26,571 nt of DNA from a virus: the IMG/VR virus record IMGVR_UViG_3300021197_001910, positions 56,022-82,592 of that record; one strand, given 5' to 3'. Under the pieces are notes generated by a model, which worked only from the letters and a program-made list of their open reading frames with translations, ran no database searches and was not told where the DNA came from. Positions 1,380-26,532 of the stretch are shown here, piece by piece (the first letter of the stretch is position 1; each line of letters starts with the position of its first letter). The translations under genes were made by a program, and so were the position numbers.

Positions 1380-1382
1380 CTT

Positions 1383-2153
1383 TTACTCTCCTACCTTATA
1401 GGTGGGGATTCCCACCATTTTATGTTTGTTTTTGTTATGAAAAGACGTATAGATGGTCAGCACCTCTTCCTGGCGTGGGGTTAGGAGTTCCGATGTAGAT
1501 GTTTCTAGATAACCCATAGCCCATTCTAGTTCTGCATAGGATGCCCCAATTTGGGATTCGTCGGTCCTAGAGTCATCCCAGAGACCATCGGTGGGAGGTG
1601 CATTTAGGATCTCGTCGCATACCCCTAGGGAGGTAGCCAGTTCGCGGACCTCACTCTTAAGAAGATCGGCAATGGGGCTAATATCTACCCCGCCATCTCC
1701 ATACTTCGTGAAAAACCCTACTCCGAAGTCTTCGACTTTGTTACCTGTGCCTACTACCAGTCCGTTATGGGATGTGGCCAGGTAATATAGCACCATCATT
1801 CTGAGGCGGGATTTAGAGTTGGCATTAGATAGCAGGTTGTATTCAGAAGTGTCTTTGAAGATTTGTTCAAACGAGAGGTACGCTTCTGTTGCATCGATAT
1901 AGACAGCCTCTACATTAGCATACTTTTCGCACAACCACTGACATTGTAGCTCCGACAGGTCAGTATTCTCTTGCTTTGAGTTAATAGGTATATTAACCAC
2001 ATAAGTTTTGATGCCTGTCATAGCACATAAGGTAGAAGACACTGCTGAATCAATGCCGCCCGATACGCCTATAACATAGCACTCCAAGGGGCTGTTTTTG
2101 AGATATCCGGCTAGCCATGCCGCGATGTCGCTTCCTAAATCTTTATCTATCAT
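1383..2153 (-). CDS. nadE: NH3-dependent NAD synthetase
   Basis: This 256-aa protein is of normal length for the ammonia-dependent NadE. It adenylates nicotinic acid adenine dinucleotide and amidates it to NAD. It has the PP-loop SGGIDS (31-36), the GTGNKVEDFGVGFFTKYGDGG segment that contacts substrate, and the ISPIADLLKSEVREL and APPTDGLWDD...TDESQIG segments of this family. There is no glutaminase domain. The start overlaps the stop of the radical SAM gene by one base (TAATG), so the two are translationally linked. NadE is cytosolic and is not a normal member of a glycan cluster. It may raise NAD for the dehydrogenase next door or counter NAD depletion in an infected cell; both are inference. 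The NadE residues are conserved enough that I prefer it over a sugar amidotransferase-type PP-loop protein. Confidence 0.92.
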   Translation of the reverse strand: MIDKDLGSDIAAWLAGYLKNSPLECYVIGVSGGIDSAVSSTLCAMTGIKTYVVNIPINSKQENTDLSELQCQWLCEKYANVEAVYIDATEAYLSFEQIFKDTSEYNLLSNANSKSRLRMMVLYYLATSHNGLVVGTGNKVEDFGVGFFTKYGDGGVDISPIADLLKSEVRELATSLGVCDEILNAPPTDGLWDDSRTDESQIGASYAELEWAMGYLETSTSELLTPRQEEVLTIYTSFHNKNKHKMVGIPTYKVGE

Positions 2154-4078
2154 TATATTATCTCCGCTGTGTTTTTATAGCGTCCCACTCGTCGTCCAAA
2201 CCATAATACCTCTTTCGCCCACGTAAACGTGTCCGAATCATAGGTCTTGGCATCAAAGCGCACCGTATTGTCTTGCGCAGTGAGATCGTCGCCATCTTCA
2301 ATAAGATTATGGATATTATATTTAAACGTTTTTTCAATAGGATACGTTGCGTGAGGATTACTTAGACGACTGATCTGATAATCGAATACCTCATCGAGGA
2401 CTTCAGAGTTTGTATCTACATAGTATTCGTCCACAAAGGTACGCATTTCCTCATAGAATTTTATCTTGTTTTTCTCATCGGATATCCTAATGCAAGTGGA
2501 CTCATCAACGGCCCAGTTAATATCGCCGGCGCCTTCTATGACATAACCCCAATGTCGTTGGTTTTTTATAATCTTGTGGAGGTCTTCTTTGATGGTGTGA
2601 TATTCACTCCCAATAAAAGTAGCAGGATTTTTCTGAACAAAATCCATAAAACTACTGTAGAAATCCCGGAAAGATATACCGTATGCCCTATTGAGAGCCC
2701 GGGAGATGAATTGGAGGGGTCCGAGGTAGTGCCCAAAAATGATAGCCCACCGATATTGATGTCCTTCGATCCACTCGTCGGGAGTGAGGGTGTTGGTCTC
2801 TGTAATAAACTCTACTGTATCGTTACTTAATGTTTCGGTAATGTGTCGGTGTGAGAACCGTGGCTGGGTTGTAGATGTTTTGATTCCATACTTCTCAATA
2901 TGTTCTATAGAGCCGATTGGAGCATTTGGAAGCAGCATCATCAGATGAATATCCAGATAGTTGTGATAACCATATTCCATAATCTCAGCGATACCTGCCT
3001 TAAAGGTCTCAACCGTTTCTTCCGGGAGTCCCCAGATAAGCTCCACATAGCTACCGATGCCTTCGCCCTCATAAAGTTCGATGAAATTCTTAAGTTTACC
3101 CCCGTCGACATTGCGCCTCTTGACAGCTTTAAGAACTGCGGGGTTCATAGACTGGAGAGCGATTGTCATACCCTTTTGTGCACCAGCTTCTTCAAAAACT
3201 TTTGCAATGTTAAGAATCTTATCAGCCTTTCCTTTAAGCCAGGTTACCCTATAAGCATGGGGGTACCCTGTCTTAGCTTTTACTTCTTTGACAAACTGGG
3301 CTAACTCATAGTCATTATCATACTTGAGTCCGAAGTTTGAGTTGGCGTCAGTTACATATTCAATTTTATTTTCGGCTATCCACTCAATTTCTTTTTTGAC
3401 TTTATCAAAACAGGTACGTACCTTCGAATAGTAACTCTCACCAATCTCGCAAAAGGTGCAACTAAAAGGGCAGCCGCGGGAGGACTCCACGCTTACGTTA
3501 TAGGCTAGCCCCTTAGTGTTGTTTGCCAGCAACTCATCAAAAAGCCCATCCAATAGTGGGCTGGGAGCATTTTCTATATCTGTCATCCGGGTTCGGGGAA
3601 GGGTGGTTTTTTCCCGGTTTTTAACATTAATCGTACAGCCAGCAATTTGTTTGTAATCAGGACTCTCTTTCAAGTTTTCCATCAAGATTTCATAAAATGA
3701 CTCTTCGCCTTCGTGGTGAACCAAAATGTCAACATAGGGATGCTCTTTAAAGAATCCGCGATGACGGTCTGACATTGGTTGGTGCTGACCTCCAAACACG
3801 ATTAAGCAATCTGGATATTTTTCTTTGACTGCTTTTGCAATATCACAGTTCAGGTTCCAGTTCCACATGAAGCATGAAAATCCTATAATATCCGGCGACT
3901 TGATTCGAGCTAAGATGTCTTCCAGCTCCTCCCTATAGTAAAACCATTCCTTAAGTTTATAGTTTTGACTTACTTCGGGTTTACTGTTGCAATAGGACCA
4001 TACAACTCCCGAACTATACGGCAGATACACTTGGTTAGCAAAAATGTCTGACAACTCACATAGATAAAGATTTTTCAT
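2153..4078 (-). CDS. B12-binding-type radical SAM protein
   Basis: I choose the ATG at 4078 (641 aa). The longer reading frame to 4135 would add 19 residues read through the end of the upstream fucosyltransferase gene. Residues 1-130 look like the Rossmann-type cobalamin-binding domain of this class (PDIIGFSCFMWN, LIVFGGQHQP), but no DxHxxG cobalamin-ligand motif is visible. The radical SAM domain follows with SSRGCPFSCTFC, giving the CxxxCxxC cluster ligands C203, C207 and C210. The C-terminal 250 residues resemble the long tails of these proteins and have no motif I recognise. Relatives methylate unactivated carbons or phosphinates, or remodel rings. The substrate here is unknown; a sugar or lipid of the glycan is an inference from the neighbours. 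The gene ends in the nadE start (TAATG). Confidence 0.85.
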   Translation of the reverse strand: MKNLYLCELSDIFANQVYLPYSSGVVWSYCNSKPEVSQNYKLKEWFYYREELEDILARIKSPDIIGFSCFMWNWNLNCDIAKAVKEKYPDCLIVFGGQHQPMSDRHRGFFKEHPYVDILVHHEGEESFYEILMENLKESPDYKQIAGCTINVKNREKTTLPRTRMTDIENAPSPLLDGLFDELLANNTKGLAYNVSVESSRGCPFSCTFCEIGESYYSKVRTCFDKVKKEIEWIAENKIEYVTDANSNFGLKYDNDYELAQFVKEVKAKTGYPHAYRVTWLKGKADKILNIAKVFEEAGAQKGMTIALQSMNPAVLKAVKRRNVDGGKLKNFIELYEGEGIGSYVELIWGLPEETVETFKAGIAEIMEYGYHNYLDIHLMMLLPNAPIGSIEHIEKYGIKTSTTQPRFSHRHITETLSNDTVEFITETNTLTPDEWIEGHQYRWAIIFGHYLGPLQFISRALNRAYGISFRDFYSSFMDFVQKNPATFIGSEYHTIKEDLHKIIKNQRHWGYVIEGAGDINWAVDESTCIRISDEKNKIKFYEEMRTFVDEYYVDTNSEVLDEVFDYQISRLSNPHATYPIEKTFKYNIHNLIEDGDDLTAQDNTVRFDAKTYDSDTFTWAKEVLWFGRRVGRYKNTAEII

Positions 4079-4082
4079 AGGT

Positions 4083-4973
4083 TTATATCGTCTTCCAACT
4101 GGCAGGGTAAAACCCAAGCCAAGCACGGTGATCATCGGGAATAGTATAAGCTTTAGGGGCTATCACTCTCTTATCAGCTTTAGGATTGAGAAAGGCGGCC
4201 CAATAGCCAAAGCTAGTCGTGTGTGAGGTGATGTGATGGTCGCAGTTCTTCATGGCGGCAAAATCTTCTATATCTGATTTACCTTCGCAAAATATAAATC
4301 TATCATCCTCAAGCTGTTCCTTACACCAGTCGACGTCTCCCTGGTTGTGCTTCATTCCATCACGCGTACCACCAGAGAAGACTAAAAACTTCACATTATG
4401 TCCGTCAAACTCTTCTAAGGCTCGAAAGAAATAACTACCAAAGTGACTGTCTTTCGTAAGGGAGTCGTTGGGTCCATAATAATCTGTTACGATACCTCCA
4501 TGTCCATCCGTATTGTCGCCGCGGCGGAAATGCACACTGACTATTTTCTCGTCGTTAGGCTTTAAACTTTGGATGTATTCTTGTGCTTCTAGCTCCAGGT
4601 CACCCTTCAGCTTAAGGTCACTCCTGATGATATCCGTATACTTGGTAAAATACTGACTATTCTGAAAATAACCATGAAAGTTAACTCCGTCTGGAATTTG
4701 AAATACCTGCGGGTTGTAGTGTGCATGCTGTCCGCGTTGCTCAATAAAGTTGTGATTAATATTCTCTAGGTCAGAGTCTCTCAGAAAATCACACTCAATA
4801 TTATAGTTTCCTAACAAACAAGGTTGTGTCTTTACATCCGCCCAACACATCGTAGAGGGGTCCGGGATCTTCATCTCATATCCAGTCTCTAAAGATACCG
4901 ATCTCAGCATTGCATATTGGAATAGCTGGTTACCTAGCCTGCCGTAGCGTCCTAATTCTCTAAAAGTTATCAT
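4083..4973 (-). CDS. GT11 alpha-1,2-fucosyltransferase-like protein
   Basis: This 296-aa protein matches family GT11, which transfers L-fucose from GDP-fucose, usually in alpha-1,2 linkage. The N-terminal GRLGNQLFQYA (11-21), GYFQNSQYF (101-109) and SVHFRRGD (146-153) are the family landmarks; HxRRxD is the GDP-fucose-binding motif. The C-terminal half has FSGG and the DFAAMKNCDHHITSHTTSFG segment, corresponding to the SNSTFSWW-type region. No signal peptide or membrane helix is visible, so it is a cytosolic or peripheral enzyme. GDP-fucose could come from the fucose synthase at the left edge. The start has a GGTGGA ribosome site. It lies 27 nt downstream of the small DegT-like gene and 4 nt upstream of the radical SAM start. 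Confidence 0.9.
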   Translation of the reverse strand: MITFRELGRYGRLGNQLFQYAMLRSVSLETGYEMKIPDPSTMCWADVKTQPCLLGNYNIECDFLRDSDLENINHNFIEQRGQHAHYNPQVFQIPDGVNFHGYFQNSQYFTKYTDIIRSDLKLKGDLELEAQEYIQSLKPNDEKIVSVHFRRGDNTDGHGGIVTDYYGPNDSLTKDSHFGSYFFRALEEFDGHNVKFLVFSGGTRDGMKHNQGDVDWCKEQLEDDRFIFCEGKSDIEDFAAMKNCDHHITSHTTSFGYWAAFLNPKADKRVIAPKAYTIPDDHRAWLGFYPASWKTI

Positions 4974-5000
4974 TATAAATCCACCCAGTTCTACTGTAGA

Positions 5001-5624
5001 CTATTTTAGCACTGTTATATCTTTAAATAAAGTGAATTCTGTCAGATCACGATAGGGAGGATTTTCAGGGATATCCGGCATGTGCTCAGGATAGTTTTGC
5101 ATAAGAGTAAGTCCGCGCGCGGCTTGTTCTGGAGTCATGTACATGTTCCAGCCCTCCTCATCAATCATATCTTCATGATATTTCATTCCATCGGTACGCC
5201 CTTCGTACCGGCGCGCTTTTAACCACTTGACGGCTTCTAGATCATCGAGTAGGATCATTCCCCCTTTACCAATTTTTAGATGTTTCTTAATATGGAAACT
5301 TAAACACATCATGGTACCTGGGATATACATTTCTGATGTTAATCTCTTTGCGGCATCGTATATGGGAAATGGTTTGAGCTGGTAGATTCCTTCCCACTTA
5401 GCATCCTCAAAGATGAGGTTACCGCCGGCTTGGAGGACGGACTGCGGTGGGGAGAGATAGGTACGCTTGGGTAGGATTACATCCTTGCCGGCGACATCAT
5501 GCCATTTGCACGCTAAAAACAGTGCATTAGTACAACTATTCATCGATACCGCATAGGGGGCGCCGGTATAGTGAGCTACCTCTTCTTCAAACATTTTCAC
5601 CACTTTATATGGATTATGCAACAT
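5001..5624 (-). CDS. miniature DegT/DnrJ/EryC1-type PLP protein
   Basis: This 207-aa protein is clearly related to sugar aminotransferases of the DegT/DnrJ/EryC1/StrS family, which normally have 360-400 residues. It keeps the N-terminal block VSMNSCTNALFLACKWHDV (26-44) with GKDVILPKRTYLSPP, the PLP-ring aspartate in YDAAK (D90) and the Schiff-base lysine block SFHIKKHLKIGKGG with K114 the likely lysine. The spacers between blocks are shortened and most of the small C-terminal domain is gone. Family members make amino sugars such as perosamine or 4-amino-4-deoxy sugars from keto-sugars. With the formyltransferase nearby, an N-formylated amino sugar is a reasonable inference. The shortened form may be active as a dimer or may have lost activity. 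It starts 3 nt after the methyltransferase stop. Confidence 0.8.
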   Translation of the reverse strand: MLHNPYKVVKMFEEEVAHYTGAPYAVSMNSCTNALFLACKWHDVAGKDVILPKRTYLSPPQSVLQAGGNLIFEDAKWEGIYQLKPFPIYDAAKRLTSEMYIPGTMMCLSFHIKKHLKIGKGGMILLDDLEAVKWLKARRYEGRTDGMKYHEDMIDEEGWNMYMTPEQAARGLTLMQNYPEHMPDIPENPPYRDLTEFTLFKDITVLK

Positions 5625-5627
5625 TTT

Positions 5628-6461
5628 CTAACCGTTCCGGGGAAGATATTCCCCTATATTTTCCTTGAAATATTCTAAGCTTACCGGATTCATAATTTCT
5701 TCAAATCGCGTGTAATACGCGTCCCAATTTAGAGTCGACAGATCAATCTCGGGCGTTGGGGTATCAAACTTGTCAAGCTTACGCGGTGACACAATTGTAA
5801 TACACGCCTGGGGGATTGAAAAAACAGTCAAGTCGGGAAAAGTTCTTAAGTATGCTGCATTTTTCCACACATCGCCGTTGAGTCCCTTCGGCTCGGAGGC
5901 GGCGGTGTTCTCGTGCCAAGCAAGGCGGTCTTTTTTCTCCGCTGTGATTACATTATCTAAAATAGCCTCATAGTCAGATAACCAAATCTGCTGGCGGCTT
6001 TTTAAGATAGGGCATGTATCGTGCAAGACGATCAACCCATTTTCTCTGAGGAGCTGGAGGGAATTCTGCACTTCCTCGTGTACCACATCGAAAAGGTGAA
6101 GTCCATCGATAAAGATAATATCGTAGCGGTGATGAAAGAAATAATGATTCAAAGAGAAGAATAATTGAGATGTCATTCTGTGGGTTATATTGCCCGATGC
6201 TCCATAGGGATCAACCCCATGTTTCACCTCCACATTAGTGATGTGATCAAAAGTGTTTCCCTGATCTACACCAATCTCTAAATAATGGAGGTCGGCGCGG
6301 TCCTGAGTTAATACGTTTATAACATCGGGAGGGTCATAGGGATATCCCATGGGGTTGGTGGATCCCCCAAAATTAAATCCGGTCATGGGTTCCATCTGCG
6401 CGTCTTCGGAGATGGGCTGAAAGATTCTCCGCTGTGCTTTAAATTTAAAATTCTTACTCAT
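5628..6461 (-). CDS. class I SAM methyltransferase (Methyltransf_24-like)
   Basis: This 277-aa protein has the core of a SAM-dependent methyltransferase of the kind found in surface-glycan clusters. The SAM loop is LEIGVDQGNTF (61-71), followed by the acidic strand VKHGVDPYG (79-87). DIIFIDGLH (114-122) and GLIVLHDTCP (142-151) form the later strands; IDGxH and HD are typical of the Methyltransf_24/CmcI-like group, where they bind a metal. About 45 residues precede the fold and 90 follow it with no recognised domain. It likely O-methylates a sugar of the glycan, but acceptor and position cannot be read from sequence. Its ATG lies within the last codons of the upstream glycosyltransferase gene (8-nt overlap), indicating translational coupling. 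Confidence 0.82.
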   Translation of the reverse strand: MSKNFKFKAQRRIFQPISEDAQMEPMTGFNFGGSTNPMGYPYDPPDVINVLTQDRADLHYLEIGVDQGNTFDHITNVEVKHGVDPYGASGNITHRMTSQLFFSLNHYFFHHRYDIIFIDGLHLFDVVHEEVQNSLQLLRENGLIVLHDTCPILKSRQQIWLSDYEAILDNVITAEKKDRLAWHENTAASEPKGLNGDVWKNAAYLRTFPDLTVFSIPQACITIVSPRKLDKFDTPTPEIDLSTLNWDAYYTRFEEIMNPVSLEYFKENIGEYLPRNG

Positions 6462-7785
6462 GCCATTCTCCTTTTAGTATCTCATCCAATAGCGTTTTCC
6501 ACCTACTGGTTACCTTTTCAAAATTATGATGTTTGTGTACGCCGCGAGGACACTTCTTTGATATCTCCTCTAAATCCGGAGACCTAAGTAACTGCAATGC
6601 GCGGTCAGCCATTTCTTGCGTATCCAGGTCTTTAATAATAAATCCAGTCTCCCCATGTTCTATTATGTCCACCCCTACAGATCGATCAAACGAAACTAGA
6701 GGACATTCATTTTGCATGCTTTCCGAGACCATCATGGGTCCCGCATCTGTGGTGGTGGTAGAGAGTCCAATGTCTGCCGCTTTATAAGCCATGGCCATTT
6801 CGGTGCGAGACTTCATATATCCAGTGGGGACTACCTGAAACGGTTGGCTTTGGGAGAGGGGTTTGGGGGGAATCGGACCAACATTTAAAATCATTGTGTT
6901 ATCGCGCTCTTCTGGGCTCATAAGATCCCACATGTATTTAAACACCTCATCTACCAGATTTCTCCCTTTTCTCAAGATATAGGGAGAAGTGGTCCCCCAT
7001 AGAATCAGCTTCTTTTCTATTGGAATACCTACTCGTTTTCGAACCTCTTCCTTGGACTCGCTACAATAGGGAATATCATTAGGGATTGGCAATAACACAG
7101 TGCGATGAGCATTAAATATAGAACTGTTTGGGACCAAGGTTAGGCTATATGTGGAGACTCCAGCAATTATTAGTGGCACATCCGAGAGAAACTTCTTTTT
7201 ATCCTCCATCAGTTGTCGCGAACTATCTTCAGGTCCACTATCTTTTATTTGAGGACAGTTGCCACAATTTTTCATATAGCCATCACAAGCTATGCTTCGC
7301 GGGTCGATATCTAACTCCGAAGGCAGCGGAATCGAAGGATCGCGGGCCCAGTGATTGAGTGCCCAGTTTCCTTGAGGATGGTGAGGCGTGGGTATAATGT
7401 TTACCAGGTCCGGACCATTAGGGTAGCTACACCCGCCGGATAAAAGATCATGTACCATCAGCACATAAATAATTTGGCACTGGTGCTCGTCATAAATTGC
7501 CCTTATTTCTTGCGGCGTATAGTCTGCACTATAAAGTACCAATACTTTGTGCCGCGGCAGCATTTGTGCTATTTCTTGCGGACTCTTATTCTGCAGGGGT
7601 ATCAGAAACGTCATGTCGTCTTGGAACGATCGCCTCTTATGGATTAACATGCAGGAGGAGTGGTCGAGGTCTCTCAGCGCGTTGAAAACGATATAATTAC
7701 CGCTCTCATGTGTTTGATCATACGCATCGTAGCCGGCGATGTGCAATACATCGACTTCATCTGGTATGGAGGTTGTGTATCTCAT
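6454..7785 (-). CDS. GT4 glycosyltransferase (WcaC-like)
   Basis: This 443-aa protein is a GT-B fold glycosyltransferase. The N-terminal half carries a cysteine cluster, IACDGYMKNCGNCPQI (C167, C174, C177), followed by a D-S-KKK region. That pattern occurs in WcaC-like GT4 enzymes with the G-C-x-N-C-P signature. The C-terminal half has LILWGTTSPYILRKGRN, the loop before the donor site, then the donor-binding helix GLSTTTTDAGPMMVSESMQNECPLVSF, in which the usual E-G-F-G is changed to T-D-A-G-P with E retained in SES. It ends with HGETGFIIK. The probable role is sugar transfer onto a lipid-linked or protein-linked acceptor in the cytosol. The start codon overlaps the stop of the formyltransferase gene by 4 nt. 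Confidence 0.86.
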   Translation of the reverse strand: MRYTTSIPDEVDVLHIAGYDAYDQTHESGNYIVFNALRDLDHSSCMLIHKRRSFQDDMTFLIPLQNKSPQEIAQMLPRHKVLVLYSADYTPQEIRAIYDEHQCQIIYVLMVHDLLSGGCSYPNGPDLVNIIPTPHHPQGNWALNHWARDPSIPLPSELDIDPRSIACDGYMKNCGNCPQIKDSGPEDSSRQLMEDKKKFLSDVPLIIAGVSTYSLTLVPNSSIFNAHRTVLLPIPNDIPYCSESKEEVRKRVGIPIEKKLILWGTTSPYILRKGRNLVDEVFKYMWDLMSPEERDNTMILNVGPIPPKPLSQSQPFQVVPTGYMKSRTEMAMAYKAADIGLSTTTTDAGPMMVSESMQNECPLVSFDRSVGVDIIEHGETGFIIKDLDTQEMADRALQLLRSPDLEEISKKCPRGVHKHHNFEKVTSRWKTLLDEILKGEWHE

Positions 7786-8699
7786 TTAAATCTTGTCCTA
7801 AATCTTTTCAATGGAAATACACTTTCCGTGGTATCATTTTCAATTAATTGGTCGACTTTAATGAGTCCTTTCCCACACACCACAACGGGCTTTCCATCTT
7901 GTTTAAAAATTACTTTACCAACATTTCTATCTCTATTCTCTACTTCTATATCATCTATCTGTTCCACCCCAAGAACTCTTACGAGACGGCCGTTCATTAA
8001 GGAAGAAGCTCCGTTATAAGGAAATCCGAGGGCATTAACAAAATTCTCTATATAGTCCGAATCTTTAGACCAATCAATACGATAATCTTCTTTATCGCGC
8101 CACAAACTATAAGTAGCTTCTTCTTCTTCCTGGCTTTTTCCTACAATTTCTTCGTTGTTCAGGATCTTAGCTACAATATTCTTAATCAGAGTCACGTAAC
8201 ACCTGCAAACCACATCGATCGCTTCCTGTAAGGTTATAGGATAGGCGACCCGGCTAAACGATTGTCCAATAATATCACCACAGTCAAATTTTTCAGAAGC
8301 AAAAAGAGCACTTACTCCAACTGTCTCGTCTTTATTTAAAAGACATGAAACCAACGGATTAAACCCCCTATATTTCGGTAAGAGCGAATCATGAAAAATA
8401 ATAATCTCTACATCTTCCAAAAAGAGAAGCCACCGCCATGCAACCGCAAAAGCATAATCAGTCTTAATGGTATATTCTTCGCATCGATTAAAAAAAGGTA
8501 TTCTCTCTTTCACACAAAGATTTTTGATATCTTCATAAAAATCTTCCTGGATGCTTTTATCCTCGGAGGCTATTACGGTGTCCACGGCTTCTCGATGGTG
8601 CCCAACCATATACTTGAGGACTTCATAGCCCTTTTGTCCCATCAAGAAAAAAGAAATTTTATTCACGAACTTTTTCTCATTTTTAATAATATTAATCAT
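7782..8699 (-). CDS. Fmt-like sugar N-formyltransferase
   Basis: This 305-aa protein belongs to the formyl transferase superfamily that uses N10-formyltetrahydrofolate. The motif FHDSLLPKYRG (102-112) holds the catalytic histidine H103, and FDCGDIIGQ holds the matching aspartate D142. The C-terminal part has the YRIDW signature (about 202-206) and a short C-terminal domain. In most relatives an asparagine sits two residues before the histidine (N-x-H); here it is isoleucine, I101. Because it sits in a glycan locus next to a DegT-like protein, N-formylation of an amino sugar is more likely than formylation of initiator tRNA. Its ATG at 8699 is 12 nt after the sulfotransferase stop. A TTGACA-18-TATTAT promoter-like string spans this junction (8686-8715). 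Confidence 0.83.
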   Translation of the reverse strand: MINIIKNEKKFVNKISFFLMGQKGYEVLKYMVGHHREAVDTVIASEDKSIQEDFYEDIKNLCVKERIPFFNRCEEYTIKTDYAFAVAWRWLLFLEDVEIIIFHDSLLPKYRGFNPLVSCLLNKDETVGVSALFASEKFDCGDIIGQSFSRVAYPITLQEAIDVVCRCYVTLIKNIVAKILNNEEIVGKSQEEEEATYSLWRDKEDYRIDWSKDSDYIENFVNALGFPYNGASSLMNGRLVRVLGVEQIDDIEVENRDRNVGKVIFKQDGKPVVVCGKGLIKVDQLIENDTTESVFPLKRFRTRFK

Positions 8700-8711
8700 T
8701 ACAAGATGTTG

Positions 8712-9476
8712 TCAACATGACCTTTCTCTCTCGTAGTGCTCAAAGCATTCGCGAGTGATCCGGCAATTCTTAGTATTAGTAAAGGTGTATTTAAAGTTCT
8801 TTACATCTTCATAGTACAGAGAGAAAGCCTCATATATGTGATTAAAATCTACATACATCTTAGTATACCTCTGGTCTTTATTGGCTGACCTTCTCTCCCA
8901 GTTTGTGAAGGTCTTTTCATTGCCAGTTAAAGTCTTATACAACCTTTGGGCATCATATGCAAGATTCTCATATCTTCCAATAAACTGCATAGGACTGCTC
9001 GCGGCGGTGGTAAGATAGTGGGTTTGAGTATAGCTGAGGATCGATTGCTGGATTTCAGTCCCGGGGGTTTTTAACTTTTCTGGTAACGCTTCAAACTCCC
9101 CCAGTCCTCCGAAATCTTCACGATGATGGTGAAACATCGACGCCAAGCGATCCCAGGGGTTACGTACAAAACTAAACTTATAAGCAGCTTGCCAACGGGA
9201 GCGGCCGCGGGTCTGGTGCTCCGCTCTATTAATCTCATTAAGCTTCTGTACTTTTTTTACAACCGTGTTATGCTGTAACCACGGACACTCGGGTGACGGA
9301 CCAGGTACATGCGGGATGTCCCATGGTCCACCGGGGAGGTGATGAGTTTCATAACTCTCTTGTGCCGTCAGGTGTCCACTCAGTGATAGTTCAAAATAAT
9401 GTTTTAAAGATGTTCCTCCCGTCTTGGGAATATGGATATATATTACTGGATTGTTACCGACTAGGTCGTAGGGCAT
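8712..9476 (-). CDS. PAPS-dependent sulfotransferase
   Basis: I choose the ATG at 9476 (254 aa). The frame can extend four codons to a TTG at 9488 but that adds nothing conserved, and GAGAGA lies just upstream of the ATG. The protein has the 5'-phosphosulfate loop YIHIPKTGGTS (13-23) and the 3'-phosphate motif FSFVRNPWDR (101-110), the two defining motifs of the Sulfotransfer_2 family. It would transfer sulfate from PAPS to a hydroxyl, here most likely of a sugar. C-terminal conservation is low, as usual. No membrane anchor is visible, so it should act in the cytosol. It follows the GT-D-like gene by about 8 nt and is followed by the formyltransferase. Confidence 0.86.
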   Translation of the reverse strand: MPYDLVGNNPVIYIHIPKTGGTSLKHYFELSLSGHLTAQESYETHHLPGGPWDIPHVPGPSPECPWLQHNTVVKKVQKLNEINRAEHQTRGRSRWQAAYKFSFVRNPWDRLASMFHHHREDFGGLGEFEALPEKLKTPGTEIQQSILSYTQTHYLTTAASSPMQFIGRYENLAYDAQRLYKTLTGNEKTFTNWERRSANKDQRYTKMYVDFNHIYEAFSLYYEDVKNFKYTFTNTKNCRITRECFEHYERERSC

Positions 9477-9484
9477 TATATCTC

Positions 9485-10264
9485 TCAATCATTGCACGAT
9501 GTAACCAAGCTTGGATGGGACTCTCCCATCCAGTATCCCTTAAGATATCCGCGCTCAAGAGATAGGTTTAAGTGTTTGTGCAGTGTGGTTCCAATATCAA
9601 TATACGTGTTATTGTCATAATTTTTAAATAGATTGTGGATTAATATCTCAGAAAGACTGCTGGCTGAAAATAAGAAGACATGATTTGTAACGGCATTGTC
9701 TTCTATCCACGTGGAGATTTCCTCAATGAGATGATGATCATTAACAATACAATTGGTACCAACTCGAAAATCCTTAACAACCTCAAACGGCAGCCCAGAC
9801 AAGTCTGCGTTCTTACTGCAAACCATCACCACTTTGTGGTTTGTTAGCTCGGGGATCCATTGTTCTACAAAATCTTTATAGTTGGAGTTAACAAGTAGGT
9901 TGGCATAAGTATAGTGCTCATCAAACTCGCCATATTGTTCCTTCATCCACGGCACATATTGCTGCGATGCACAGTTACAATTCTGGCAAATACCTCCGAC
10001 AAAATAGTTTTCTTTTTTGAACTGGTAGGATTCGAGTAGAGCATCGCGGACATGTCCGTGGCGGCCGGGGTCGAAGTTCTTGTAATCATCTTCTGAATAA
10101 CCAAAGTTATGATATTGATTGTCAGTGATCACATAGTCACGTTCGAGGATCAGTCTTTTGTTTTGCATCACTAAAATCTCGCCATCGGAATATCGAGTGA
10201 AAGCGAAACTCTCGCCTGCCTGGAGCTTCTGTAGTAGCCCGGAGAGATCTTCCTTAAACTTCAT
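9485..10264 (-). CDS. putative GT-D fold glycosyltransferase
   Basis: The ATG at 10264 is chosen (259 aa), although the frame is open to 10408. The extra 48 residues would lie wholly inside the end of the 2-epimerase gene, while this start gives an 11-nt overlap. The protein opens with a helical segment and then FAFTRYSDGEI (21-31), which resembles the R-x-x-D-G-E (DxE) donor-metal motif of GT-D glycosyltransferases (formerly DUF1792). Near the end is YIDIGTTLHKHLN, a match to the DxG segment of that fold. Four Cys/Asn-rich residues lie in GGICQNCNCAS near residue 120. It probably transfers a hexose onto a growing glycan or glycoprotein. The family call rests on two motifs and is less certain than the other glycosyltransferases. 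Confidence 0.66.
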   Translation of the reverse strand: MKFKEDLSGLLQKLQAGESFAFTRYSDGEILVMQNKRLILERDYVITDNQYHNFGYSEDDYKNFDPGRHGHVRDALLESYQFKKENYFVGGICQNCNCASQQYVPWMKEQYGEFDEHYTYANLLVNSNYKDFVEQWIPELTNHKVVMVCSKNADLSGLPFEVVKDFRVGTNCIVNDHHLIEEISTWIEDNAVTNHVFLFSASSLSEILIHNLFKNYDNNTYIDIGTTLHKHLNLSLERGYLKGYWMGESHPSLVTSCND

Positions 10265-11261
10265 TCTTGAGTACTCCGTAAATCTTCTCCGCTGCGAAAC
10301 CATCACCATAGGGACACTCTTCTTCAATATCTGGTATGTGATTGTCATCTCTATTGACAAAATCGAAGTGTTCGCGGAGCTGCCTTGGGGAAGGACACAT
10401 ATAGGCAAACACTCCCATCCCCTCTACTCGCTCCGTCGTCTTACGACAGACAATACATTTCTTCCGCAGGAAAGATGCTTCCTCCTGGATTCCTCCACTA
10501 TCTGTGATGATAAAGCGACAGTTTGCGATCATCCGAATAAACTCTGGGTGGTCTAGCGGTTCTACAACTTTGACAGTCTGCAGTAAGTGTCTATACTGCT
10601 GAACGTTGGGGTTGGGATGAAGGGGGATAATAAACTCATACTCGGGGTGGTCTTTAGCTATGCTTTCCAGCTCAGAGAACCACCTGTCCATCATTGCATG
10701 GTTTTCGCGGCGATGAAGAGTAACCAAAACTGTATTGCCATAAACGGATTCCACATCTCGGATATTATCCAGCACTGTATTCCCTACAATATGGACGCCG
10801 TTGAGAACATTTTCTTTCTTGAGATTTGCGGCGGAGACATCCGTAGGGCACAAGTGTGTTGTCGCCAGTCGCGACAGAGCTTGGCGGTTAAATTCTTCAG
10901 GATAAGGATTGACCATATCCCATGTGCGCAGACCGGCTTCAAGATGAATAACATCGATCTTGCGATGGAAGGCTGCCAATCCCACAGCGAAAGCGGAGGT
11001 GGTATCACCCTGCACCATTACCGAAGTAATGCCACTAAAGACATGATCATTATTCATGATTGATGCCACAATAGAATCAAGCCTATTATCACCATCGGTA
11101 ATCTGAAGACGGCGGATATCCGTCGTATCAATTACATTTTCTAGCAAACTTGTGTGCTGTCCTGTAAACAAAAGTGCATATGGCATCACGCCATCAAATC
11201 GTCTAAGTAGTGGTTTTATTTTAATGTATTCGGGTCGCGTTCCGAATGATATAAGCAACAT
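10254..11261 (-). CDS. wecB: UDP-N-acetylglucosamine 2-epimerase
   Basis: This 335-aa protein is a non-hydrolysing UDP-GlcNAc 2-epimerase, which interconverts UDP-GlcNAc and UDP-ManNAc. Landmarks in order: SFGTRPEYIKIKPLL (5-19), VQGDTTSAFAVGLAAF (83-98), IHLEAGLRT (105-113), PEEFNRQALSRLATTHLCPT (121-140), GNTVLDNI (160-167), VTLHRREN (180-187) and ITDSGGIQEEA (252-262). The catalytic acidic residues sit in the HLEAG, PEEFNR and SGGIQEE blocks. It is 35-45 residues shorter than typical bacterial WecB, mainly by shortened loops. UDP-ManNAc can be oxidised by the dehydrogenase at 279-1379. The ATG follows an AGGAG site that is part of the previous gene's last codons, and the stop overlaps the GT-D-like start. 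Confidence 0.93.
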   Translation of the reverse strand: MLLISFGTRPEYIKIKPLLRRFDGVMPYALLFTGQHTSLLENVIDTTDIRRLQITDGDNRLDSIVASIMNNDHVFSGITSVMVQGDTTSAFAVGLAAFHRKIDVIHLEAGLRTWDMVNPYPEEFNRQALSRLATTHLCPTDVSAANLKKENVLNGVHIVGNTVLDNIRDVESVYGNTVLVTLHRRENHAMMDRWFSELESIAKDHPEYEFIIPLHPNPNVQQYRHLLQTVKVVEPLDHPEFIRMIANCRFIITDSGGIQEEASFLRKKCIVCRKTTERVEGMGVFAYMCPSPRQLREHFDFVNRDDNHIPDIEEECPYGDGFAAEKIYGVLKNEV

Positions 11262-11262
11262 T

Positions 11263-12855
11263 CTATCTCCTAAAGATGGGGTTCCATCCGTTTAAAATGG
11301 CATTCTTTACACAATCATCTCTTTCAGTGTAGAACACCTGATGATTGGTGGGGCGAGACGTAGCTTTGTCATCAACTCCGTATTTCATGCCCTTAGTAGA
11401 ACTATAAAGTTCGAGATCACCGGAAGGATGGGGAGGTACATACGTGCGAGTGCCACTATATTTCTGCGCTAAGTAGGATAGCTGAATATCCTCGCCATTA
11501 TCCCAGCAATATGGCACTTCACGCCACAGATCCATTACTGATGTACGCTCCATAAACCAAGCGTGTCCGACGAGATCTACCTCTTGTACTGTTTCGTTGG
11601 GGTTACTCCAGCCGACACGAGTATGTCCGTAGTAGCGATCTTCGTTGAGAAGCACTCCTACGCCACCCATGATTCCGGGATGAGTTTTAATGGTCGATAG
11701 GCAGTTTTCAAACCAGCGCGGACCAGGGATGGTGTCGTCATCAAATAACGCAATATACGTGGTCTGAGTCAGAAGGGCCGCTGAAAAGCGTCCATAGAAC
11801 TTCCAGTTGAAATCATTACGAATGATGCGATCTGCATCAATGGAATCAAAATCAAAAGAAGCATTGTCTTCGTGGTGATTAACCCATACCCAGATCTGAG
11901 TTGGTGCTATTGTTTGGCTCCGAATACTTTCAATTTGTTCTTGTAGATATTCAGGTCGACGATAGCAGTTTAAAATAACTGTGATATCCGATGATTCAGC
12001 CTGTGTCTTAGATGGGGCTTCTATAAGTTCCTCGAATAACCCTAGGGCGCCCTGTACGCGTGTTCTGATCTGTGTAAGAAGTTCTTCGCCCTTGAGTGCG
12101 TAAATATCTTCAGATGCAAATCCTAGCATCTTAGGAGCTGTCAGAAGCTTACAACCTAACATCTTAGCTTCTGCGCTGATACGAGAAAATGTCTCTAGGA
12201 CTTTAGGACAAAAAACGAATCCCGTGTATTGTGCTAACAACGCTAGAATTTCTTCTGGGTTTGCTGGACCTATCAAGTCATAGTCAATCCCCTGTTGTTC
12301 ACAAACCTGAATAGCAGCTGCAGTTCCTTTGATGGGATTGTTCGATCGAATAACGGCAAACTTCTCGTTTTTTGGGACATCTTGCAGCGACCGGATATAG
12401 TCCAGCCGATCGATTGACCAGAGGCTTGTTCCAATATTGTGAACGTGAGTGATATCAAGGTTTTGCTCCATAATCTCTTTGCAAACCTTACTAAGAACGA
12501 CCACTGCTTTGGCGTTACGATAAAGGGCTTCGTTTATAAGCTGATTTTGAGGGATCTTAAACTCTGGAAATCTACTGGGATCTCTCGTCTTAATATATTT
12601 ATGGTCATGCTCATAGATGATATACTCAGTGTCTAGGAGAAGACTCTTGTTCGCTTCTGAGAGATGGGTGAAATTGCTAAGAATGTAAATATCAGCACTT
12701 TTCAAAGTTTCTGGCGTAACGTTCTGACTGTTAATCGCCTGAACTTGATAGGATTTAAGCTGTTTTAAATGAGAAAGCAGAACCCCATCATTGAGTTCTG
12801 CTCCCCCCGTAAGCTGATTATCGAAAAAGTCCGAAATAAAAACTAACGTTTTCAT
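11263..12855 (-). CDS. two-domain glycosyltransferase: GT-B-like plus GT2 (GT-A)
   Basis: This 530-aa protein is a fusion. Residues 1-275 form a compact GT-B-like domain: an N-terminal ISDFFDNQLTGGAE (glycosyltransferase loop), AVVVLSKVCKEI (117-128), FAVIRSNNPIKGTAAA (166-181) and FCPKVLETFSRISAEAKMLG (215-234), where E221 is in the donor-site position. Residues 290-530 form a GT2-type GT-A domain with DITVILNCYRRPEYLQEQI, IRSQT and the metal-binding FDDD at 371-374, then GGVGVLLNEDRYY and a GHAWFMERT acceptor region. Both domains look intact, so it may add two sugars in sequence. Similar double glycosyltransferases occur in capsule and O-antigen loci. Start and stop are both tightly coupled to neighbours (TAGAATG junctions). 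Confidence 0.87.
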   Translation of the reverse strand: MKTLVFISDFFDNQLTGGAELNDGVLLSHLKQLKSYQVQAINSQNVTPETLKSADIYILSNFTHLSEANKSLLLDTEYIIYEHDHKYIKTRDPSRFPEFKIPQNQLINEALYRNAKAVVVLSKVCKEIMEQNLDITHVHNIGTSLWSIDRLDYIRSLQDVPKNEKFAVIRSNNPIKGTAAAIQVCEQQGIDYDLIGPANPEEILALLAQYTGFVFCPKVLETFSRISAEAKMLGCKLLTAPKMLGFASEDIYALKGEELLTQIRTRVQGALGLFEELIEAPSKTQAESSDITVILNCYRRPEYLQEQIESIRSQTIAPTQIWVWVNHHEDNASFDFDSIDADRIIRNDFNWKFYGRFSAALLTQTTYIALFDDDTIPGPRWFENCLSTIKTHPGIMGGVGVLLNEDRYYGHTRVGWSNPNETVQEVDLVGHAWFMERTSVMDLWREVPYCWDNGEDIQLSYLAQKYSGTRTYVPPHPSGDLELYSSTKGMKYGVDDKATSRPTNHQVFYTERDDCVKNAILNGWNPIFRR

Positions 12856-17020: not shown

Positions 17021-18340
17021 TCACAAGTTTTGTGCGGCGAAGGTGGCGACTCTAGACCTCTCTCCCTTATGTAGGGTAATGTGTGAAGCTAGCTCAAAAT
17101 CCTTGAACTTTTCAACAGCATGAGTTAATCCGTTAGTAGTAGCGTCAATGTAAACATTGTCAATCTGTTCTACGTCACCAGTCAGTACAATCTTTGTTCC
17201 TTCACCTACTCTCGTTATTATAGTCTTTAATTCGTGAGTTGTCAAGTTTTGCGCTTCATCAATGATAATAAAAGCGTTTGCTATCGACCGCCCACGAATG
17301 TAAGTGAGAGCTTCTATCTCTATTGTACCCTTTTGCATGTAAATGTCAAGGGTTACTTTGTCATTTCCCATTAAAGTTTGCAGATTGTCCTGAATTGGCA
17401 TGAGCCAGGGTGACATTTTCTCTTCCATGGTTCCAGGGAGAAACCCAATGTCTTTTCCAAGGGGCTGTACGGGTCGTGAGACGATTATGCGGGAATACTT
17501 CTGTTGCACCTCGTCTATGGTCTGTTCAAGCCCTGCAGCGATCGCACAGATCGTCTTACCGCTTCCTGCTTTGCCGATGGCCGTGATGACCTCAATAGAT
17601 GGATCCATGAGAGCATCTATTAGAAAATGTTGTTCTTTGTTTCGTGGTTTGATTCCCCACACGGTTTTCTTGTTATGCATCAACTGCTTTAAAGGCATAG
17701 ATGCTCCCATGAAGCGCGCTAGTGCAGTTTTCTTTTCATTAGCACTAGAGACTAGCATCACATATTGATTGGCATGGAGCTTATGTTCTTCGAGGTATAC
17801 TTCTTCTTTAGCATAAAATTGATCGATCAGCTGATCATCCACTAAAATAGTGGCACAACCCGTATAAATGCTTTCGCTGTTATCAACAATCTGATTATTC
17901 TGAAAATCTTCAGAGGTTAGACCCACAGCGTCTGCAATGACACGCATATTAATATCTCGCGAGACAAGAATAACCTTACGAGGTGAATCTCGATGCTCTC
18001 GCAAAGCTGTCGCGATGATCAGGTGATCGGGGACACTAAGGTTAAGGTCCTCTGGGAGGTCCTGACGCTTGATTCCTTGCCCGCTGACTGCGCGGACGAT
18101 GCCCAGACCCTTACGGATGCGCACACCGGTCTCCAGGGAGCCCTGAGAGCGCAGGTCGTCCCAGATACGAATAATCTTTCGTGCCTGCGCTCCGACGGCA
18201 TCCTGACGCTTCTTGTGGTTGTCTATTTCCTCAAAGACCTTGAGGGGAACGTGAATGTCGTGATTTTTAAATGCATATATTGCATCTGCATTGGTAAGAT
18301 AGACACTGGTGTCTAGGACGTATGTTTTCTTGCGGCTCAT
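17021..18340 (-). CDS. phoH: PIN-PhoH ATPase (PhoH2 type)
   Basis: This 439-aa protein is a fusion of an N-terminal PIN ribonuclease domain and a PhoH ATPase/helicase domain. PIN acidic residues: YVLDTSVY (D10), EEID (E38, D40), VPDHLII (D105) and SRDINM (D129). PhoH: Walker A GKAGSGKT (256-263), RIIVSRPVQPLGKDIGFLPG (284-303), Walker B FIIIDEAQN (357-365) and VLTGDVEQID (385-394). Proteins of this architecture unwind and cleave RNA in vitro. phoH genes are very common in aquatic phages. Length and motifs are complete. The ATG is preceded by GAAAGG. In the coding DNA are two strong sigma70-like promoter strings facing downstream (17217-17245 and 17322-17349). Cytosolic; its job in infection is not established. 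Confidence 0.93.
   Translation of the reverse strand: MSRKKTYVLDTSVYLTNADAIYAFKNHDIHVPLKVFEEIDNHKKRQDAVGAQARKIIRIWDDLRSQGSLETGVRIRKGLGIVRAVSGQGIKRQDLPEDLNLSVPDHLIIATALREHRDSPRKVILVSRDINMRVIADAVGLTSEDFQNNQIVDNSESIYTGCATILVDDQLIDQFYAKEEVYLEEHKLHANQYVMLVSSANEKKTALARFMGASMPLKQLMHNKKTVWGIKPRNKEQHFLIDALMDPSIEVITAIGKAGSGKTICAIAAGLEQTIDEVQQKYSRIIVSRPVQPLGKDIGFLPGTMEEKMSPWLMPIQDNLQTLMGNDKVTLDIYMQKGTIEIEALTYIRGRSIANAFIIIDEAQNLTTHELKTIITRVGEGTKIVLTGDVEQIDNVYIDATTNGLTHAVEKFKDFELASHITLHKGERSRVATFAAQNL
17217..17245 (-). promoter_or_regulatory. perfect consensus promoter string inside phoH
   Basis: On the minus strand: TTGACA (17245-17240), exactly 17 nt and TATAAT (17222-17217). It lies within the phoH reading frame (codons for the LTTHELKTIIT segment). 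The predicted start near 17210 would transcribe the 84-aa gene (ATG at 17013), the metallopeptidase and the nuclease. Coding constraint can make such a match by chance. Confidence 0.45.
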
Positions 18341-19223: not shown

Positions 19224-19555
19224 TAATACTCTTTCTTTACTGCGTACTTGTTTTCTACTAATAAATCGTTTATATTCTTTCCGTCTAAGTGAATTATACC
19301 AATATATCGTCCATATTTACCCTTTTTATCTTTAATTGTCTCAATTATAACGTTTTTGTCTAAAATAAGGCTACGGAGATAGTCTCTACTCTTTAGTCCT
19401 TCGGGTCGTTCTTTGCCCCGGACTTCGGGCGCGTTGATGCCATAGAGGCGCAGCTTGATCTTCATTTTTATACTAAACCCACAGTCAACGATCGCTGTCA
19501 CTGTGTCGGCGTCGTATACTTTTATAATTTTAGCGTGATAGTGGTAGGGGGTCAT
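19223..19555 (-). CDS. thermonuclease (staphylococcal nuclease homologue)
   Basis: I use the ATG at 19555 (110 aa), which overlaps the TGA of the upstream gene as ATGA; ATGs at 19561 and 19573 are possible. The protein is a minimal SNase domain: KVYDADTV (12-19) supplies the Ca-binding acidic residue, LRLYGINAPE (35-44) supplies R36 and catalytic E44, and GKYGRYIG (79-86) supplies R83. These correspond to R35, E43 and R87 of the staphylococcal enzyme. There is no signal peptide, unlike secreted bacterial nucleases, so it would act in the cytosol on DNA or RNA. Small SNase proteins occur in phages. The stop codon TAG ends on the first base of tRNA-Gly, so cutting the tRNA out leaves this mRNA with no stop. 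Confidence 0.87.
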   Translation of the reverse strand: MTPYHYHAKIIKVYDADTVTAIVDCGFSIKMKIKLRLYGINAPEVRGKERPEGLKSRDYLRSLILDKNVIIETIKDKKGKYGRYIGIIHLDGKNINDLLVENKYAVKKEY

Positions 19556-20334
19556 ATCCATAACGCCATACACTGGAGTGAGCCGCCGGATTTGAGGAAC
19601 TCAGATGTATCCAACAGATGAACATCAAACCCACGTTCTGTTAGCAAGAACTTTAGTCCTTCATTACCTGCCGGCATAAGCACATGGTCCCCAAACACAA
19701 TCGAGTTGCAAGCAAATCTGTTGGCTTCTTCTTCCGAAACTGCGAGAAGTTCTATATCTTTTACTTTGTTGATAGTGTGCTTGCTGAATGCACCAGGATA
19801 ATAGATAGCAAAATCTTCTCTCAGTAGCGAAAAGCAGGTATCCAAGTGATAGAAGTTAGGGTTTTTAAGTTTCAGAGGAAGAAGATCCAACTCAAGGATC
19901 TCAGCAGCCCGGCGGATAGCCTTAAGATCCGATCGGAACCCATAACCTGCAATCATCTGATTATTCGTTACGATAGTGTCTCCGCAGCCTTCAAAGTTCA
20001 TCTCCTCAGGCAAGACAAAAGTTTCATATCCCTTTTCATCAAACCACTGCTTGAAGACTTGGCGCTCCATTTTGCGCTCAACATGTTTGAAGTTACTTAA
20101 TACTACCTTGTTATTATGAACAGTTCCTGCATTGGCTGTGAATACCATGTCCGGCAGGAGTGGCCACTGTCCTATGAGTTTGGTTTTGGCGCCCAAGAAC
20201 TCTAGAGTATTCTTCATATTGAACCACTGCTTCATAACGAGTTCGCTATTTACAGGCTCACCCTTCATCCAGGGATTAATAGAATAGGTGACATCAAAGT
20301 GGAGAGGGGGACAAAGTAAGACAGTATTGTTCAT
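19552..20334 (-). CDS. amidinotransferase/dimethylargininase-family enzyme
   Basis: This 260-aa protein has the guanidine-modifying fold. MVFTANAGTV (63-72) and MNFEGCGDT (112-120) supply the substrate-binding carboxylates. FYHLDTCFSLL (161-171) gives the catalytic His163 with D165. The catalytic Cys255 lies in GSLQCMALWI at the very end. All residues for a Cys-His-Glu type covalent mechanism are present. Members hydrolyse arginine or methylarginine to citrulline or transfer the amidino group; the exact substrate cannot be told. It may alter the host arginine pool. No ribosome site is obvious before the ATG. The gene starts 28 nt after tRNA-Pro, and its TGA overlaps the thermonuclease ATG. 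Confidence 0.86.
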   Translation of the reverse strand: MNNTVLLCPPLHFDVTYSINPWMKGEPVNSELVMKQWFNMKNTLEFLGAKTKLIGQWPLLPDMVFTANAGTVHNNKVVLSNFKHVERKMERQVFKQWFDEKGYETFVLPEEMNFEGCGDTIVTNNQMIAGYGFRSDLKAIRRAAEILELDLLPLKLKNPNFYHLDTCFSLLREDFAIYYPGAFSKHTINKVKDIELLAVSEEEANRFACNSIVFGDHVLMPAGNEGLKFLLTERGFDVHLLDTSEFLKSGGSLQCMALWI

Positions 20335-24534: not shown

Positions 24535-24551
24535 GTAAAAAGTATATTTTT
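24529..24551. repeat. 23-bp element, copy A, at dnaK stop codon
   Basis: Identical to 26427-26449. On the minus strand it is an A/T-rich near-palindrome ending in TTGACA, so it looks like an UP element plus -35 box. This copy begins at the dnaK stop codon. Confidence 0.9.
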
Positions 24552-26376
24552 ATTCTACAACCTCTGCGTCTATAATATCTTCATCATCTGATTCGGCAGT
24601 CTGTTGCTCATACATTCCTGCGGCTGCAGCATGTAGAGCGGATTCCAACTTTTCAATAGCTGCATTAAGAACTTCTAAATCATCAGATCCCTCAACACTC
24701 TTAGCTTCAGCAATCTCGTTCTCCAGATTAACGCCGTCGTTTTCTTTGGCAAACTTTTCAGTTTGATAAATCATTGTCCCAAGCTTGTTCGCTGCCTCCA
24801 CTAAGAGTCGCTTTTTGGTATCCTCTTCTGCGAAACGTTCTGCTTCGTTGATAGCTTCGTTGATCTCGCTATCAGATAGCGATGATCCTCCCGTAATAGT
24901 AATCGACTGCTCTTTTCCAGTAGCTTTATCTTTAGCTTTTACACTGACGATACCATTAGCATCAATATCAAAAGTTACCTCAATCTGAGGGACTCCTTTA
25001 GCAGCCGGAGGGATATTTCCTAGGTTAAACTGCCCTAGAGACTTGTTATCTTTGGCAAACTGGCGCTCTCCCTGGAGCACATTGATAGTCACTACTGTTT
25101 GATTATTCGCTGCTGTCGAATATACCTCACTCTTGGCACAGGGAATTGTTGTGTTACGTTCAATCAGCGTATTCATAACGCCTCCGAGAGTTTCAATTCC
25201 CAGTGAAAGAGGGGTGACATCCAACAAAAGCATATCGGTGACTTGTCCCGAGAAGACTCCGCCCTGTACGGCAGCGCCGAGAGCCACTACCTCATCCGGA
25301 TTCACTGAGTTATTTGAACTCTTCTGAAAGAACTTCTCTACCGCTTCCTGCACTGCAGGGATTCGCGTCGAGCCGCCTACGAGTAACACTTCGTCGACTT
25401 CTCCTACTTTAAGATTAGCATCTTTTAGGGCATTTTTAACTGGCTCAAGGGTCTGCTGAACAAACTCTTCAATCATTTGATCAAATTTAGATCTAGTCAA
25501 AGTTATATTTAGGTGCTTAGGTCCAGATGCATCAGCTGTCAAAAAGGGCAAGTTAACGTCTGTTTGTTGGGTGCTGGAGAGTTCAATCTTTGCTTTTTCT
25601 GCTGCTTCTCTAAGTCGCTGCAGAACTGTTTTGTCCCCTAGTACATCAATGCCGGTCTCCTGCTGAAACTCACTAGATAAATAATTAATAAGGATCTCAT
25701 CTACGTTGTCGCCACCCAGATGAGTGTTACCATTAGTGCTGAGAACTTCAACTACTCCATCCGCTATATCTAATACAGATATATCAAAAGTACCTCCACC
25801 GAGATCAAACACGGCGACCTTCATATCTCCGTTTTTCTTATTGAGTCCATATGCCATTGCAGCTGCTGTGGGTTCGTTAATAATCCGTTTAATATTGAGC
25901 CCAGCAATCTTGCCGGCATCTTTGGTTGCTTGCCTCTGAGCATCATCAAAATAGGCCGGCACTGTTACTACTGCATCGGTTACTGGTTCTCCTAGGTATT
26001 GTTCAGCATCACGTTTCAGTTTCGCCAATACAAGGGCACTAACCTCAGGAATTGAAAAACTTTTATCTTGTATCTTAATACTGCAAGAACCCTTTGAATC
26101 CACTAGGTTATAAGGTATACTGTCAAGATTCGCTTTTACATCTTCGAAGTTGGACCCAATAAACCTTTTTGCAGAATAGATTGTATTCTCTGGATTCATA
26201 ACAGCCTGTCTTCGAGCTGCAGCGCCAACTAAACGCTCATTGGTCTTTGTAAAGGCAACCACTGATGGGGTTGTCCTGTTACCTTCCTCGTTGGGGATAA
26301 TCTTAGGGTCTGTGCCTTCCATAATAGCTACAGCACTATTAGTAGTTCCTAAATCAATTCCAATAACTTTACTCAT
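24550..26376 (-). CDS. dnaK: Hsp70 chaperone DnaK
   Basis: A complete 608-aa DnaK. The ATPase domain has [13 protein letters not shown] (5-17), [40 protein letters not shown] and [14 protein letters not shown]. The linker [14 protein letters not shown] leads to the substrate domain with [21 protein letters not shown] and the V-x-F-D-I-D-A-N-G-I segment. The helical lid ends in the acidic tail [13 protein letters not shown]. It refolds or holds proteins with ATP, DnaJ and GrpE; no partner gene is in the window. Full length and intact motifs argue for function. A dnaK among phage-type genes is unusual and could come from a bacterial host. The ATG follows GGAGAA and a promoter (26405-26432), with a leader of about 22 nt. 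Confidence 0.97.
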
Positions 26377-26450: not shown

Positions 26451-26532
26451 TGGTGGAGGTGCACGGAGTCGAACCGTGGTCCTGAGAATACCCTTGCAGG
26501 TCTTAATCCCAGTCGAAACCCAAACCACCCCC
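26451..26532 (-). ncRNA. mini-tmRNA: tRNA-like domain only, no tag region
   Basis: An 82-nt RNA that begins like tmRNA (GGGGGTGGTTT, then GGTTTCGACTGGGATTAA) and ends like tmRNA (CTCAGGACCACGG, TTCGACT, then CCGTGCACCTCCACCA). The acceptor stem pairs 7 of 7 with G3:U70. The T-stem is CACGG/CCGTG, A is the discriminator and CCA is encoded. There is no D-stem, as in tmRNA. Helix 2 is CCTG/CAGG (RNA nt 33-36 with 49-52), continued by three pairs across a CA bulge and closed by a GTAT loop. The 12 nt between the strands leave no room for pseudoknots or a tag reading frame. I read it as a one-piece tRNA-like domain, possibly alanylated. It is not a two-piece tmRNA, whose halves are in permuted order. 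A degenerate tRNA is the alternative. Confidence 0.8.

Follow-up and report, generated by a model that had tools for sequence, protein, structure and literature searches.

Can an RNA gene of 82 nt that has both ends of a tmRNA and nothing of its coding middle be a working phage gene, and if so, what might it do? The question is raised by the window, the whole stretch of 26,571 nt analysed here, which forms the final 26.6 kb of a virus record 82,592 bases long. We take the source to be a tailed phage, since the record has genes for a terminase, a portal protein, a primase and a baseplate-like protein and the terminase is closest, at 46-47% identity, to those of phages of Flavobacterium and Microcystis. 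A sequence-only reading had described the locus as a tagless tmRNA in normal order, with its helix-2 strands joined by a short loop.

That description was borne out. Cmscan aligned the RNA (coordinates 26451-26532 exact, minus strand, RNA 5' end at 26532) to RF00023 end to end, over model positions 1-374 (67.2 bits with a gathering score of 47, E = 2.2e-24), skipping 302 positions of pseudoknots and tag and having 9 nt instead. The order of parts is GGGGGUG-GUUUGGGUUUCGA-CUGGGA-(19-nt apex)-UCUCAG-GAC-CACGG-UUCGACU-CCGUG-CACCUCC-ACCA (Table 1). The tRNA-like domain (TLD) of tmRNA is present, namely an acceptor stem, a stemless D region (the D-like loop) containing GGTTTCGAC, a T arm and ACCA, and so is helix 2, which joins this domain to the remainder and has 6 bp in the window. 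By comparison with RF00023 the resume codon and tag reading frame are absent, there is no sequence for any of the pseudoknots PK1-PK4, and just the 19-nt apex lies between the helix-2 strands. A covariance model (R1) built from 14 other phage RNAs of the same form, with the window RNA and its close kin left out, recovered it at 61.4 bits (E = 2e-13 in 0.87 Mb), and an independent contig (L038) carries an 82-nt RNA identical to it. The thermodynamic fold is unexceptional taken alone (z = -0.61), so the case rests on homology and covariation. ARAGORN called neither a tRNA nor a tmRNA at the site. We rejected an ordinary tRNA (RF00005), RF00023 being the best clan match, ARAGORN silent and the apex a short hairpin with no anticodon arm, and likewise a permuted two-piece tmRNA (RF04321), the order here being normal and that model reaching just 21.7 bits, off-centre. 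Being one-piece and in normal order, with little beyond the TLD, the window RNA is, judged by its sequence, the gene of a TLD-only (standard, no CDS) tmRNA of a tailed phage; we call such RNAs mini-tmRNAs.

Table 1. Parts of the mini-tmRNA gene and the two downstream genes, in window coordinates
Feature	Position	Strand	Evidence
Mini-tmRNA gene, 82 nt including the encoded CCA	26451..26532	-	RF00023 67.2 bits; model R1 61.4 bits
Acceptor stem, 5' strand GGGGGTG, G3 at 26530	26526..26532	-	7/7 paired; covaries across relatives
D-like loop with tmRNA block GGTTTCGA(C)	26513..26525	-	Conserved columns, alignments A1 and A3
Helix 2, 5' strand CTGGGA	26507..26512	-	Fold and covariation
19-nt apex in place of pseudoknots and tag	26488..26506	-	Fold
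Apical hairpin ACCU-GCAA-GGGU	26490..26501	-	Fold; present in most relatives, with compensating changes
Helix 2, 3' strand TCTCAG	26482..26487	-	Fold and covariation
T arm CACGG-TTCGACT-CCGTG	26462..26478	-	RF00023; T stem paired in 87/87 nonredundant mini-tmRNAs
Acceptor stem, 3' strand CACCTCC, U70 equivalent at 26457	26455..26461	-	G3-U70 in 150/150 loci listed
Discriminator A73 and encoded CCA	26451..26454	-	A73 in 150/150, CCA encoded in 46/150 loci listed
dnaK (Hsp70), complete, next gene downstream of the mini-tmRNA	24550..26376	-	PF00012, E 2.9e-240
Putative lipoprotein, 171 aa	23899..24414	-	Downstream of both mini and full tmRNA in relatives

Of the two downstream genes, dnaK was considered as a conserved partner and dropped, no dnaK lying beside the mini-tmRNA in the relatives checked; the putative lipoprotein gene is the conserved downstream marker of the tmRNA slot described below. 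A sigma-70-like promoter with a 12/12 match (TTGACA-16-TATAAT; 26432-26405, minus strand) lies between the mini-tmRNA and dnaK. Elsewhere on the minus strand of the window are a gene cluster (279-12855) in which sugar-nucleotide and glycosyltransferase-like genes are accompanied by those of NAD synthetase and UDP-glucose dehydrogenase, and a dimethylarginine dimethylaminohydrolase/arginine deiminase-like protein (19552-20334) adjoining a tRNA array.

When the window mini-tmRNA was compared by blastn with 50,697 phage records, every match was to a tRNA or a T arm, so pattern and covariance searches were needed to find its kin. In IMG/VR a strict pattern (tmRNA D-block and T-arm with at most 44 nt between them) found 48 contigs and a looser one gave at least 120 matches; after a check of acceptor pairing there were at least 150 loci in phage contigs, with at least 117 distinct mini-tmRNAs. 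Lengths run from 67 to 98 nt, mostly 80-83 with a peak at 82, and 47 of the 49 mini contigs exceed the Rfam cut-off. A pattern of intermediate spacing gave a single match, a 126-nt tmRNA-like RNA (L067, 10684-10809, plus strand), which argues that mini-tmRNAs form a size class of their own and do not grade into longer forms. Mini loci fall into at least 30 groups with no protein in common within 6 kb of the gene, an approximate figure, many loci being fragments. A second, full tmRNA was found in none of the mini contigs of the first scan; one contig already bearing a mini-tmRNA has a possible second (L124, 5-81, plus strand, 41.4 bits). ARAGORN made full-length calls over two of the loci (L072 and L148), which we consider over-extended, as cmscan limits both to the mini-tmRNA. 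Other structured RNAs lie close to two of the genes: a Pistol ribozyme about 105 nt upstream on the same strand (L148, 6093-6154, minus) and a RAGATH-24 RNA about 1 kb away (L168, 9494-9696, minus).

A similar pattern run over 84,980 GTDB genomes matched 11 times, and just two of these matches are mini-tmRNAs: one comes from a Prochlorococcus single-cell genome, on a phage-like contig classed as viral in IMG/VR, and the other lies in a Parafrankia prophage, adjoining its terminase. The latter was also the sole find of a covariance-model search of 396 actinobacterial genomes. Four matches, from Chloroflexi, proved to be full tmRNAs in which TTCGAC recurs close to the 3' end; the other matches, lacking a matching acceptor, were rejected.

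Five isolate Streptomyces phages (LuckySocke, pSt2308, BRock, Shaeky and GiJojo) have a mini-tmRNA above the Rfam cut-off, in each case inside or beside a tRNA cluster; that of LuckySocke is at about 17977-18057 of its record. None of the five is annotated as a tmRNA, and the annotation of GiJojo has a hypothetical ORF across the gene. The mini-tmRNA of Riptide has an altered D loop (57.8 bits with our own covariance model). Streptomyces phage Alone3 (L181, about 2485-2564) has a decayed copy, below the Rfam cut-off, with the D block changed and the T stem partly unpaired; in its near relative LuckySocke the gene is intact. Four further isolates were considered and rejected as carriers of mini-tmRNAs: Synechococcus phage S-CRM01 (L183, 1485-1657) and Ruegeria phage RpAliso (L182, 2474-2695) have unannotated permuted tmRNAs, and Gordonia phages GodonK (L178, 2006-2534) and Sixama (L179, 2110-2531) have unannotated full ones, the deposited 'tRNA-His' of GodonK falling within its tmRNA. 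The sequence-only reading had itself raised three grounds for doubt, that the RNA might score as an ordinary tRNA, lack homologues of the same form, or stem from an assembly error that deleted the tag region. The first is answered by the ranking of RF00023 above RF00005 and the silence of ARAGORN, the second by the abundance of homologues of nearly constant length, and the third by more than 100 covarying copies, isolate genomes among them, which exclude such an error.

All four helices covary strongly. Across 101 distinct mini-tmRNAs, in an alignment fitted to the covariance model, standard pairs fill 96.5% of pair cells (66.8% when shuffled), and the covariation score is 0.678 (0.139 when shuffled and at most 0.103 in slid versions); an independent 14-sequence MAFFT alignment gave the same picture. 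Each of 87 nonredundant mini-tmRNAs has unbroken acceptor and T stems, with three to six pair types across the set at each of acceptor pairs 4-6 and T-stem pairs 1-3, and shuffling of partners disrupts about one-third to two-thirds of these pairs. Helix 2 has compensating changes at all 8 modelled pairs. These results bear on whether mini-tmRNAs are non-functional relics, either deletion products of a phage tmRNA or attachment-site fragments left by integration into a tmRNA gene. tmRNA genes are often used by integrating elements (PMC10865867), and relatives of the window phage have a full tmRNA in the same slot, as described below. We nonetheless find this origin very improbable, given the covariation of both acceptor strands and all helices over 101 sequences, the groups of loci without shared neighbours, the near absence of intermediate sizes, and the fact that DS6A, a phage with a published tmRNA of this form, integrates at tRNA-Lys and not at tmRNA.

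Selection extends to the signals for charging. The principal identity element for alanine is the G3-U70 wobble. All 150 loci listed have it, and all have A73, whereas acceptor pairs 4-6 vary freely with compensation between the strands; CCA is encoded in 46 of the 150. The strict pattern fixed neither G3, U70 nor A73 (the looser one fixed U70 but not G3), and all 48 strict-pattern loci have the three. A molecule that merely folded or soaked up SmpB could change G-U to G-C, so charging appears to matter, and this invariance, the best sequence evidence on the point, suggests that it is important. It also suggests that the mini-tmRNA acts in the ribosome and is more than an SmpB sponge. An uncharged sponge that merely titrates SmpB would have no need of G3-U70, A73 or a complete acceptor stem, retained in 150/150 loci listed, and we think it improbable, even though the inhibition of E. 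coli tmRNA by a similar molecule is described as independent of charging in the account given by PMC4131195.

Relatives of the window phage, gathered with the PhoH protein as anchor, place the gene in context. Seven have a mini-tmRNA at the same place, followed downstream by the same genes for the lipoprotein and a metalloprotease-like protein, and six (L196, L207, L209, L210, L212 and L213) have at that place a full tmRNA of 312-316 nt (120-135 bits) with LALAA-type tags (ANDADYGLALAA, ANEADYGLALAA and similar). The same gene of about 118 aa lies directly upstream of both forms. By position and neighbours, the mini-tmRNA is thus an alternative allele of the full tmRNA in the same slot of sister phages. 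In a tree built from three neighbouring proteins, mini and full forms intermingle, and a single grouping of all mini-tmRNAs is rejected (AU test, P about 1e-57); well-supported branches force at least two switches between forms, and three is the most parsimonious number. The mini-tmRNAs of the clade are closely alike, so we consider allele exchange more likely than repeated identical deletion as the source of the alternation. No SmpB gene was found in searches of 49 and of 22 mini or full records, which makes host SmpB the likely partner.

What the RNA does must be read from what it has kept. Judged by its sequence, the mini-tmRNA still has every determinant that alanyl-tRNA synthetase, EF-Tu and SmpB are known to recognise, while the tag frame and all pseudoknots are gone; the earlier suggestion that it could be alanylated and bind SmpB is well grounded in this respect. 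The TLD in the 2CZJ crystal, made of 25 + 34 nt with a closing UUCG loop (PMC3929946), is nearly the same molecule as the window mini-tmRNA. From these determinants and the published TLD biochemistry we infer SmpB binding, alanylation and entry into stalled ribosomes. We put at about an even chance the proposal that it is a charged tRNA-like decoy which, by means of host SmpB and EF-Tu, blocks or circumvents tagging by the host. During infection it would be expressed, processed like a tRNA and charged with alanine, would take host SmpB and EF-Tu, and would compete with host tmRNA for SmpB as well as for the vacant A site of ribosomes that have stalled. Having no resume codon, it could not add a degradation tag; the main effect would be that host trans-translation is blocked or bypassed and that unfinished phage proteins are spared tagging and proteolysis. 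Competition with host tmRNA seems the most likely role in view of the TLD biochemistry and of the finding, as PMC4131195 presents it, that tmRNA in E. coli is strongly inhibited by a DS6A-like TLD, whether or not the latter can be charged, the TLD 'perhaps acting by titrating SmpB'. As this inhibition needed no charging, titration leaves the invariance of G3-U70 unexplained, and an active role in the ribosome may be more important than inhibition.

Two such active roles can be envisaged. In tagless rescue, the alanyl-mini-tmRNA with SmpB would enter a stalled ribosome, take over the nascent chain and eject the broken mRNA, and a host factor would release the chain, leaving phage proteins unmarked. 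The conserved alanylation signals favour this, as does the persistence of a tag-less mitochondrial tmRNA alongside a targeted SmpB, which suggests rescue without a tag (PMC11915505). The full tmRNA in the same slot of sister phages also means that these phages are not uniformly hostile to trans-translation, a point against the decoy proposal, and that rescue may be the retained function. Against it, the similar molecule in E. coli is described in PMC4131195 as an inhibitor of tmRNA, and none of 18 larger mini-bearing contigs searched has an RF-1/ArfB or peptidyl-tRNA hydrolase domain, so chain release would need host factors; we regard tagless rescue as unlikely. In template-free alanine tailing, successive Ala-mini-tmRNAs with SmpB would occupy an A site devoid of mRNA, extending the stuck chain by a run of alanines. 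The charging determinants are invariant, and PMC3929946, in citing Shimizu and Ueda 2006, describes polyalanine made in vitro from SmpB and a TLD fragment, with no mRNA. That reaction is known in vitro only, with an artificial fragment, and alanine tails made by bacterial RqcH are degradation signals (PMC8012679) that would not spare phage proteins, and we give tailing little credence. The broader proposition, that phages widely use an alanine-charged, template-less tmRNA in the ribosome, for tagless freeing or for mRNA-free alanine tailing, with lineages switching between it and a tag-bearing tmRNA at one locus, we advance tentatively, as possible though doubtful.

Several known systems resemble the mini-tmRNAs in part. 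Full-length phage tmRNAs include those of Bxz1, Wildcat and phage G and the six found here in relatives of the window phage. Such RNAs have the same tRNA-like domain and, in relatives of the window phage, the same slot and flanking genes as mini-tmRNAs, but unlike these they have pseudoknots and a tag such as ANDADYGLALAA. The mitochondrial tmRNAs of jakobids and oomycetes (RF02544) also lack the tag frame, but are organellar and usually permuted and two-piece, that of Jakoba libera having been re-permuted (PMC11915505). On the tmRNA Website, 9 of 97,179 sequences are classed as 'standard, no CDS', among them genes of about 65 bp from Mallomonadaceae plastids. These RNAs are, like mini-tmRNAs, one-piece, in normal order and without a tag frame; the plastid ones differ in being organelle-encoded and shorter, whereas phage mini-tmRNAs have a helix 2 of about 6-9 bp and a small apical hairpin.

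The closest case is mycobacteriophage DS6A, for which a 'TLD only' tmRNA is on record (Mao et al. 2009, as reported in passages of PMC4131195 and PMC11915505). The sequence-only reading, which knew of no described bacterial or phage example, was mistaken on this point. Like the mini-tmRNAs, that of DS6A (NC_023744, JN698994) is a phage gene in normal order with little beyond the tRNA-like domain of tmRNA and no coding part, a likeness drawn from the published description. The kind is therefore already known, from DS6A and the nine no-CDS database sequences. DS6A is the one phage example named in those two sources, while IMG/VR holds at least 117 distinct sequences. As far as the literature shows, what is new is the abundance of mini-tmRNAs in phages, the evidence of selection on charging, the unannotated copies in isolates, and the alternation of full and mini forms at one locus. 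The TLD-only tmRNA, earlier a rarity, becomes a common and selected class of phage gene that ARAGORN misses, occurring in at least 30 unrelated gene neighbourhoods and in phage isolates whose hosts are named Streptomyces strains. The alternation in the slot of one clade is a natural experiment on the purpose of the tag half of tmRNA, and it makes testable whether phages block, bypass or reuse host ribosome rescue and whether the tRNA-like domain alone can perform rescue.
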